Origin: Deltaproteobacteria bacterium | Lineage (GTDB): Bacteria > Bdellovibrionota_F > JAHFAK01 | Reading direction: 5' to 3' | DNA: 7,386 nt | NCBI GenBank assembly: GCA_023250585.1 | Contig: JAHFAK010000112.1 | Span: forward strand, 1-7,386 | Part shown: positions 39 to 6,529 of the stretch, in pieces | How the letters are laid out: the number at the start of each line of letters is the position of its first letter | How positions within the stretch are numbered: position 1 is the first letter of the stretch | Position numbers and translations under genes: made by a program | Notes under the pieces: generated by a model | The model's input: only the letters and a program-made list of their open reading frames with translations | Databases searched by the model: none | Told to the model about the DNA's origin: nothing

Positions 39-88
39 TGGCCGTGCTCTCCTCACCTTACCGCAGTTTTAAAGAGGAAGTCTCAGGT

Positions 89-119
89 CGTCATCCCGCG
101 GCTTGACCGCGGGATCCAG
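89..119 (+). repeat. Palindromic repeat, left copy of a facing pair
   Basis: This 31-nt sequence has a perfect 9-bp stem (ATCCCGCGG at 93-101 with CCGCGGGAT at 107-115) and a 5-nt loop. It begins with the GTCAT end and finishes with GGATCCAG. Its exact reverse complement lies at 317-347. It is much richer in GC than its surroundings. The same end motifs recur at 6490-6560, so this belongs to a dispersed repeat family in this genome. Confidence 0.85.
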
Positions 120-123
120 GGGG

Positions 124-298
124 TTCAATAGTGGGATGCTCTTCAAAGTACACCAGTTTATTACTATCGTATTTTGAAGTGAAGGAATCAGCTGCTTTAT
201 TCTTGTGTTCCCAGATTCTTTTGGGAAGATCCACCACCAACATATAAGGGACCCTTTCTCTTGCTCGCGAGAATATACATAAAAAGGTTCTTCTCCAT
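124..298 (-). pseudogene. GIY-YIG endonuclease relic, frameshifted and truncated
   Basis: Read on the - strand, the first part starts with ATG at 298-296 and gives MEKNLFMYILASKRKGPLYVG. This matches the N-terminus of small single-domain GIY-YIG (URI-type) proteins, usually about 80-100 residues with a YVYIL...LYIGVT pattern. At about 235-240 the similarity moves to another frame and continues as DLPKRIWEHKN, then SFTSKYDSNKLVYFEEHPTIE, ending at 124. The shift is a net +1, consistent with loss of about five bases compared with the usual GVT(N/S)DL spacing. The C-terminal third, normally an E-x-x-LK-x-W segment, is missing: similarity stops within five bases of the repeat at 89-119. A 5' extension of the second frame up to position 333 only reads through the other repeat copy and has no family similarity. 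The relic is almost certainly non-functional. Confidence 0.8.
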
Positions 299-316
299 AA
301 CTTATTACTATGATTA

Positions 317-347
317 CTGGATCCCGCGGTCAAGCCGCGGGATGACG
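317..347 (-). repeat. Palindromic repeat, right copy of the facing pair
   Basis: This is the exact reverse complement of 89-119, 31 of 31 bases. It contains the same 9-bp stem (321-329 with 335-343) and a TCAAG loop. Perfect identity between the arms, around a core that has decayed, suggests that the arms are recent or kept identical by conversion or hairpin-mediated repair. The second explanation is inference. Confidence 0.85.
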
Positions 348-397
348 ATCAAGAAGATTATAATCTAAACTGCGGTAAGGTGAGCAGGCCAAACCGC

Positions 398-427
398 TTG
401 ACAAAACACTCTATTCCTCGGTAGTTT
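398..427 (+). promoter_or_regulatory. Candidate promoter of the rpmH operon
   Basis: A perfect TTGACA -35 box lies at 398-403. The best -10 at normal spacing is TAGTTT at 422-427 (18-bp spacer), which matches only three of six consensus bases. The start codon of rpmH is 28 nt further on, a normal leader length. It begins only 14 nt right of the inverted-repeat element, so the element lies directly upstream of the promoter. The -35 is convincing; the -10 is weak. Confidence 0.5.
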
Positions 428-454
428 GCATGCTTTACAGAAAACGGAGATTTT

Positions 455-604
455 ATGAAACGGACGTATCAACCAAGTAGAATTAAACGATTACGAAAAC
501 ATGGTTTCCTCAAACGAATGAGCACTAAAGACGGGCAAACTGTGTTGAAAAGACGACGTAAAAAAGGACGAAAGAGACTTACGGTAAGTGTTCCGAAGAA
601 ATAA
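455..604 (+). CDS. rpmH: 50S ribosomal protein L34
   Basis: The 49-codon frame begins [18 protein letters not shown] and continues with a [11 protein letters not shown] tract, which is the signature of bL34. This very small basic protein binds 23S rRNA in the large ribosomal subunit. The usual length is 44-50 residues; here a short VSVPKK tail follows the conserved RKRLT. The start is fixed by the invariant MKRT(Y/F)QPS and by a GGAG ribosome binding site at 446-449, five bases upstream. The stop codon overlaps the rnpA start (TAATG), so the two are probably translationally coupled. It is the first gene of the + strand operon, behind the TTGACA promoter candidate. Identification is secure. 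Confidence 0.97.
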
Positions 605-3488: not shown

Positions 3489-3515
3489 TGTCATCCCGTC
3501 TTCGCGGGAATGACA
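3489..3515. repeat. Single palindromic repeat just upstream of mnmE
   Basis: TGTCATCCCG (3489-3498) pairs with CGGGAATGACA (3505-3515), leaving one unpaired base and a six-base loop TCTTCG. It has the GTCAT...ATGAC ends of the other repeats in this window but is a single, shorter copy. The mnmE ribosome binding site AGGGG begins two bases after it (3517-3521), so the hairpin could affect mnmE translation or transcript processing. No run of T follows it, so it is not a classical intrinsic terminator. Confidence 0.8.
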
Positions 3516-3528
3516 CAGGGGTAATCTC

Positions 3529-4888: not shown

Positions 4889-5007
4889 TGGGGAGTAGTA
4901 GATATGTTCTTTTTTAATTGTATATCGAGCGCGCTTTCCTGTTCTTAAAATTATTATGGAAGCGACGTCGATGTACAATTAAAAAAGAACATATCTACTA
5001 CTCCCCA
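4889..5007. repeat. 119-nt near-perfect palindrome between mnmE and maf
   Basis: Positions 4889-4922 are exactly complementary to 4974-5007 (34 bp). Pairing continues through one U-G position (4923 with 4973) and five more pairs to 4928/4968. After a symmetrical 3x3 internal loop, an inner helix (CGCTTTCC 4932-4939 with GGAAGCG 4958-4964, one bulge) closes an 18-nt loop. The arm reads TGGGGAGTAGTAGATATG and then a T-rich part. It begins 8 nt after the mnmE stop and ends 12 nt before the maf start. No T run follows the right arm, so it is not a textbook terminator. It shares no sequence with the GTCAT repeats. It may be a small MITE-like insertion or an RNA processing or attenuation structure; the sequence does not decide. 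Confidence 0.85.
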
Positions 5008-5604: not shown

Positions 5605-6269
5605 AAGATACGATTAAAAAAAAATTAGAACGAATACAAAATCAAATTGAGAAGGCACAGAGAAAAGTTGAACTCGTGGCAGTGTCAAAAAAAATAAGCA
5701 CACAGGCCATTAATACTGCTTATGAATGTGGACAGAAAAGTTTTGGTGAAAGTTATATACAAGAGGCGCTAGAGAAAATCGAAGCTTGCCCCTCGGATAT
5801 TTCTTGGCATTTAATTGGACGGCTTCAAAGAAATAAAATCAAATATCTTCCCGGAAAATTTAAATTAATTCATTCCGTTGATAGCCTTGAACTGGCGGAA
5901 GAAATTGATAAGAAATTTAGAGAAAAAAACATTGTTGCGCATATTCTTTTTCAATTGAATCTTGCACAAGAAAAAACAAAAGCAGGAGTAAGAGAATCAG
6001 AAATTTTTTCTTTAGTACGAGGAACTTTATTGTTACCCAATATCCATGTGCAGGGCTTAATGACTGTTCCTCCTTACTTCGAAAATCCTGAAGACGTAAG
6101 GCCTTATTTTAAAAAGAGTCGAGAAATTTTAAGTGAGCTCAAAAAAGAATTTCAAGATAAAATTGGAAGTGAATTATCCATGGGAATGAGTCATGATTTT
6201 AAGATTGCGATTGAAGAAGGCGCTACGATTGTTCGTATTGGAACAGCGATATTTGGTGAACGACAATGA
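5595..6269 (+). CDS. yggS: YggS/PLPBP family pyridoxal-phosphate homeostasis protein
   Basis: This family binds pyridoxal 5'-phosphate on a fold like the N-terminal domain of alanine racemase and keeps vitamin B6 and amino-acid pools balanced; no enzymatic reaction is established. Features are LVAVSK (27-32), with the PLP-binding Lys32, FGESYIQEA (50-58), WHLIGRLQRNK (71-81), GLMTVPP (154-160), SMGMSHDF (195-202) and RIGTAIFG (214-221). The 224-residue length is normal. The usual FGEN is FGES. The start overlaps maf by 10 nt, and yggU begins at the last four bases (ATGA), so the three are likely translationally coupled. proC nearby is a frequent neighbour of yggS in many bacteria, in line with a link to amino-acid metabolism. 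Confidence 0.95.
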   Translation: MCLKDTIKKKLERIQNQIEKAQRKVELVAVSKKISTQAINTAYECGQKSFGESYIQEALEKIEACPSDISWHLIGRLQRNKIKYLPGKFKLIHSVDSLELAEEIDKKFREKNIVAHILFQLNLAQEKTKAGVRESEIFSLVRGTLLLPNIHVQGLMTVPPYFENPEDVRPYFKKSREILSELKKEFQDKIGSELSMGMSHDFKIAIEEGATIVRIGTAIFGERQ

Positions 6270-6529
6270 AGCTGAAAATAAAAGTTAAAGCACATGCAAA
6301 ACAGAATAAAATTGAAACGAAAGAAGGAAATGAATGGACAATACGAATTAAAGCTCCAGCAATTGAAAATAAAGCAAATGAAGAATTAATTTCATTTTTA
6401 GCTGAAGAGCTAAATATTCGTGCGGCACAAATTAAAATTGTGAGTGGCCATACATCAAAAATAAAAATTATTGAGATTATTGAAATAATGTCATTCCCGC
6501 GAAGGCGGGAATCTAGAAACAAAGTTTAA
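6266..6529 (+). CDS. yggU: YggU/DUF167 family protein with a repeat-derived tail
   Basis: The 87-residue product belongs to the small DUF167 family of unknown function, known from structures of YggU-like proteins. Family features are K(V/I)KAHAKQNKIE (6-17), the I-R-I-K-A-P-A-I-E-N-K-A-N-E-E-L-I core (26-42, usually APPxxGKANxxLI), FLAEELNI (44-51) and QIKIVSGHTSKIK (56-68). The family normally ends a few residues after this point. Here the last 12-13 residues, M-S-F-P-R-R-R-E-S-R-N-K-V, are read from the palindromic repeat starting at 6490 and the bases after it. The repeat probably entered at the 3' end and replaced the original stop. The preceding IIEIIEI looks like a small duplication. 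The start overlaps yggS by 4 nt (ATGA). The role is unknown. Confidence 0.88.
   Translation: MKLKIKVKAHAKQNKIETKEGNEWTIRIKAPAIENKANEELISFLAEELNIRAAQIKIVSGHTSKIKIIEIIEIMSFPRRRESRNKV

Follow-up and report, generated by a model that had tools for sequence, protein, structure and literature searches.

REPtrons consist of a gene for a RAYT, an HUH Y1 transposase, located between GTAG REPs. Another kind of palindromic repeat, the CGTC-tagged REP, is present in at least five phyla and is defined by a CGTC or TGTC head, a stem of 8 to 9 bp that starts with AT, a loop of 4 to 5 nt, and a CCA-like tail (PMC3733652). In 2013, CGTC REPs were described as having no dedicated transposase, and their movement by other transposases was left undecided (PMC3733652). 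Bacterial MITEs, in turn, are small elements with terminal inverted repeats (TIRs) and target duplications that have no transposase gene and occur in several copies (reviewed in PMC10969869).

The locus examined here resembles each of these systems in part. It lies in the window, by which we mean the whole analyzed stretch of 7,386 nucleotides, and comprises a MITE, a pair of REPs nested within it, and the remnant of a GIY-YIG nuclease gene between the REPs. The REPs share with the published CGTC-tagged REPs the CGTC head, the 9-bp stem starting with AT, the 5-nt loop, the CCA tail, and dispersal across the genome. GIY-YIG nucleases are unmentioned in that description (PMC3733652), whereas here a GIY-YIG gene sits between two REPs, which also ride in two MITE families. 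The MITE, which we name MITE1, has the five listed properties of bacterial MITEs and differs from those reviewed (PMC10969869) in that its ends could not be assigned to a known insertion sequence and in that it holds a REP-framed GIY-YIG remnant.

Nested repeats delimit a nonautonomous MITE upstream of rpmH

The window corresponds to one entire contig (C35) of a 2.24-Mb source genome assembled into 164 contigs. Its relevant features are as follows.

52..384, no strand assigned: MITE1, 333 bp, with ends CTCACCTTACCGCAG, recurring elsewhere in the genome
52..69, plus strand: left TIR CTCACCTTACCGCAGTTT, a perfect inverse of 367-384, present in every copy
88..119, plus strand: left CGTC REP, with head CGTC (89-92), stem ATCCCGCGG (93-101), loop CTTGA (102-106), stem (107-115), and tail CCA (116-118); head outward
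120..280, minus strand: remnant of the GIY-YIG nuclease gene, with start codon ATG at 280-278 and a frameshift after ...PLYVG
317..348, minus strand: right CGTC REP, the inverse of the left arm; head outward
367..384, minus strand: right TIR, the inverse of 52-69
385..394, plus strand: right flank CAGGCCAAAC, matching the left flank of the C52 copy (GAGGCTAAAC) at 8 of 10 positions
455..604, plus strand: rpmH, read from the sequence as the start of an rpmH-rnpA-yidD-yidC-jag-mnmE cluster downstream of MITE1

The outer inverted pair (52-69/367-384) measures 18 bp and the inner pair (88-119/317-348) 32 bp, both with no mismatches. As claimed in the preliminary description, the two perfect pairs are nested around a common center, at 218.0, and are separated by two spacers of equal length (18 nt) and dissimilar sequence; the inner arm, given there as 31 bp, is indeed perfect and is 32 bp long. 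Among 200 random first-order Markov sequences of the window's length, the longest perfect inverted pair with arms at most 400 bp apart was 19 bp, and pairs of at least 16 bp occurred in 1 of the 200. The inner pair is therefore far above chance. Judged on the window alone, the outer pair is borderline against chance, and its reality is settled by the recurrence of the 18-mer across the genome: with up to 3 mismatches, it is found in 13 places, 12 of them in element copies and the remaining one an isolated chance match on contig C43 (reversed control, 0). The outer and inner repeats are two distinct kinds of end and mark two nested layers.

The arms of the inner layer read CGTC-ATCCCGCGG-CTTGA-CCGCGGGAT-CCA, in agreement with the published definition of CGTC REPs, and such REPs are dispersed over about 40 places in the genome, mostly within a second MITE family. 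The outer layer also recurs. Besides the window, there are full copies of MITE1 at C42:24412-24744 (93%) and C21:2544-2880 (89%), an internally deleted copy of 105 bp at C133:10249-10353, and four partial copies (C15, C52, C99, and C106). The C42, C21, and C133 copies, of which both flanks lie within contigs, are bordered directly at their ends by exact target duplications of 9, 10, and 10 bp (GATAATATG, ATAGGTTTAA, and GCAACAAAAG). With TIRs at both ends, several copies with common ends, and target duplications at three copies outside the window, the 333-bp outer element is a nonautonomous MITE. The earlier proposal of a small element mobilized as a unit is borne out by these copies and their duplications, and the suggested genome search for other copies with the outer 18-bp arms succeeded, which speaks against a local one-off event. 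The arms were described as intact, which is true of the window copy alone: in the C21 copy, each outer arm carries 3 mismatches.

No exact target duplication is visible at the window copy itself. The likeness of positions 385-394 to the C52 flank possibly represents an aged target duplication, but it is no more than suggestive, because the window is an entire contig and its left 51 bp are nearly identical to the flank of the C15 copy, which is joined to contig C6. Because of these two flank similarities, the window copy's left junction is unsafe. At its other side, MITE1 ends 14 bp ahead of a TTGACA box upstream of rpmH (window 385-455), and it could affect the expression of the rpmH-rnpA cluster.

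The TIR-bounded form and the duplication length of 9 to 10 bp are compatible with a DDE transposase acting in trans, and a transposase of this class most likely moved MITE1. No autonomous partner with MITE1 ends was found in the assembly, whose 164 contigs break within copies, and the only TIR outside element copies in it is the chance match on C43. A search of the genome_contigs collection with the TIR returned two exact matches, which is at or below the number expected by chance, and a search of viral_contigs gave no match to MITE1. No related element was found in plasmids, phages, viral contigs, or 59 relatives, and the sole class-level relative among the genomes searched is without MITE1. 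Elements with a PF01609 transposase on contigs C103 and C116 have different ends and were ruled out as the autonomous partner.

The GIY-YIG remnant is a passenger of MITE1

The enclosed gene reads MYILASKRKGPLYVG from position 280 on the minus strand, shifts frame, and continues as ...DLPKRIWEHKNKAADSFTSKYDSNKLVYFEEHPTIE until it stops at the left REP, with its C-terminal part, including the region of the catalytic Glu, missing. In the window, its profile match to PF01541 (E = 0.0073; 17 bits) falls below the curated cutoff of 22.6 bits. The C21 copy, which has one TGA stop, scores 32.3 bits and exceeds the cutoff; the window remnant is therefore a decayed member of PF01541. The decayed GIY-YIG gene recognized earlier within the arms is thus a real remnant, weak in the window alone and clear in the C21 copy.

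At the point where the window copy shifts, the C21 copy keeps its frame (YIGGTSDLPKRI), although a stop of its own and a loss of 6 bp lie close by. One 5-bp loss is common to the window, C42, C15, and C52 copies and is not found in C21, so that an already frameshifted gene was copied. Because a broken gene was multiplied, the remnant nuclease cannot be the mover of MITE1, with which it travelled as a passenger. The idea that the GIY-YIG nuclease had mobilized the outer element is accordingly not supported: the amplified copy is frameshifted, and the ends and 9- to 10-bp duplications are DDE-like, whereas free GIY-YIG units are duplication-free.

Stand-alone GIY-YIG genes are often framed by head-outward REPs

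An intact GIY-YIG gene is located on contig C96 of the source genome, between genes read as purH and purM, and is framed by a different palindrome with GTCAT outward. The only solved relative found for its 95-amino-acid protein is a UPF0213-like stand-alone GIY-YIG protein (PDB 1zg2; E = 2e-4), which is likewise a single domain of about 95 amino acids. The similarity is distant, and the present family, unlike the UPF0213-like protein, ends in N-P-x-W-x-D-L-Y.

To characterize the surroundings of such genes, we surveyed the 46 listed matches to the C96 protein, from 33 genomes, with 21 ParE loci, drawn from the same set of genomes, as a small control. REPs were scanned as hairpins with a GTC head and a C tail. 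Stand-alone GIY-YIG genes lie between head-outward REPs in 24 of the 46 cases, compared to 0 of 21 for ParE; the clean two-sided layout is missing at the other 22. A gapped inverted-repeat score of at least 14 across the gene was obtained for 26/46 GIY-YIG genes, 0/21 ParE genes, and 4/165 shifted positions. The nearest REP has its head outward at 28 of 31 genes upstream and 32 of 34 downstream, and 24 of the 27 two-sided cases have one and the same arrangement. The resulting units are compact (median, 374 bp), with the gene usually 10 to 40 nt from each REP, and their proteins have conserved GIY, YxG, R, and E positions in addition to the conserved C-terminal motif. No target duplication of at least 5 bp was found at any of 26 free units.

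The REPs are also associated with the gene at the level of genomes. At least five REPs of the common type GTCATTCC..GGAATC, the one type counted genome-wide, are present in 22 of the 33 genomes with the gene and in 17 of 159 without it (Fisher's exact test, P = 7e-11, across genomes of about 170 families unweighted by phylogeny). The 17 genomes that have these REPs and no GIY-YIG match count against a dedicated pairing. In one genome (G025), the dominant dispersed REP variant, CCTGCGAAAGCAGG, is the variant found at its GIY-YIG gene.

Named records with the layout include Azospirillum lipoferum 4B (protein WP_014249537.1, encoded in the sufB/sufC gap), Rhizobium sp. CIAT894, Neorhizobium sp. 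EC2-8, Shinella sp. WSC3-e, and Aeromonas caviae, while the same scan found no REP framing at the copies of S. meliloti Ak57, R. tumorigenes, and Photobacterium GJ3. This recurrence agrees with the preliminary description, in which small GIY-YIG genes flanked by similar palindromes were said to occur in many bacteria. The sufB-sufC gap is without a unit in A. ramasamyi, A. oryzae, A. sp. B510, and A. thermophilum, and so is the Shinella site in three Shinella relatives; at these empty sites of both genera, intergenic divergence is too great for a base-exact junction. On plasmid pNL2 of Novosphingobium aromaticivorans (L177), a GIY-YIG gene is framed by another inverted palindrome, GTCGCCCCGTGCTTGACACGGGGCTTGG, and the layout may therefore reach beyond GTCAT-headed REPs.

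Like REPtrons, these units have inverted REPs on both sides of a short gene of nuclease type, and the REPs are dispersed in the same genomes. They differ in both components: the enclosed gene encodes a GIY-YIG protein and not a RAYT, the HUH tyrosine transposase of REPtrons, and the repeats are CGTC REPs and not GTAG REPs. No published link between GIY-YIG nucleases and REPs was found in a search of open-access literature.

Other palindromes and a second MITE family in the source genome

The second MITE family has members about 160 bp in length at about 35 genomic sites (e.g., L065, L066, L081, and C15:430-600). It has ends GTAACAGCTCAGT(T/A)AATGGG and carries a facing pair of CGTC REPs. Exact 8-bp target duplications flank 7 of its 11 assessable copies. 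We take its GTAA ends and 8-bp duplications to be reminiscent of IS66; a search of the genome for the IS66 transposase (PF03050), which bears on this second family only, found none. The elements on C80 (L037) and C106 (L038) are chimeras of both MITE families joined at the common REP, a structure suggestive of recombination or template switching at this palindrome.

Three further palindromic sequences were observed in the window. Between jag and mnmE (3492-3516), a palindrome with GTCAT heads at both ends, GTCATCCCG-TCTT-CGCGGGAATGAC, resembles the hybrid palindrome of the 105-bp C133 copy. Between mnmE and maf (4889-5007), an inverted repeat with 48-nt arms (92% complementary) and a gap of 23 nt is perhaps a third small element. 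In the reading frame at 6266-6529, after a yggS-like gene, the 3' end (6489-6529) is encoded by a REP (...MSFPRRRESRNKV) that has turned coding.

Origin of the composite element

We consider it probable that a REP-framed GIY-YIG unit, widespread on its own, was trapped and is decaying in a MITE mobilized in trans, and that the nuclease of such units acts on REPs. In this scenario, a GIY-YIG gene framed by two CGTC REPs of its own, heads out and tails toward the gene, would have entered a small DDE-type nonautonomous transposon with 18-bp ends; we infer that capture took place in this order. The composite would then have been mobilized in trans, generating target duplications of 9 to 10 bp. Within it, truncation at the REP would have removed the C-terminal part of the gene, a loss of 5 bp would have followed, and the gene would have gone on being copied in this broken form. 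The nuclease, by analogy with REPtrons and with another enzyme in place of the RAYT, would act on REP DNA and thereby spread its own gene, and REPs in trans. The fixed orientation, the compactness, the absence of duplications, and the association across genomes suggest that it is the nuclease that acts on REPs, as RAYTs act on GTAG REPs. More tentatively, and at odds of somewhat less than even, the stand-alone GIY-YIG protein may be a dedicated mobilizer of CGTC REPs: the gene with two head-outward REPs would then be a GIY-YIG REPtron with duplication-free spread, the REPs its nonautonomous offspring, and the window a fossil of it in a MITE.

A homing-type nuclease is an unlikely alternative, although the least unlikely one. 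Under it, the gene invades preexisting REPs that are not themselves mobilized. In its favor, the units are duplication-free, the gene sits tightly between REPs, and the 105-bp C133 copy contains one REP in place of the REP-gene-REP of other copies. Insertion into one REP should, however, yield a split REP or directly repeated copies rather than a pair of complete REPs with both heads outward. The C133 palindrome, furthermore, is not a normal REP with a head and a tail and has heads at both ends, as after a deletion between two REPs, which makes it less likely to be a preinsertion site.

Somewhat less probable still is that an ordinary MITE captured intergenic filler by chance and that REPs and GIY-YIG genes are associated through a common intergenic habitat. 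REPs of the same type do occur in the second MITE family described above, and hitchhiking therefore requires no nuclease; the C80 and C106 elements, in which the two families meet at the REP, fit this explanation as well. Against it, ParE genes, which are likewise small, mobile, and intergenic, have REP pairs at 0 of 21 loci, and shifted positions score at 4 of 165. Nor does a common intergenic location predict the fixed REP orientation (28:3 and 32:2). A local one-off inversion or duplication, or an assembly artifact at a contig end, might be suspected from a window that is a whole contig, with a left end nearly identical to the C15 flank and no target duplication of its own. It is very improbable: exact duplications of 9 to 10 bp flank two further full copies and the deleted copy, all within other contigs, and the explanation is refuted for the element as such.

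The passage of REPs as passengers in ordinary MITEs is another route of REP spread. For CGTC REPs, published without a dedicated transposase (PMC3733652), the GIY-YIG nuclease is a testable candidate partner. If the proposed action on REPs is true, the question of how CGTC REPs move would gain a named enzyme and a defined substrate, and a second class of enzymes, beside the RAYTs, would be making palindromic repeats in bacteria.
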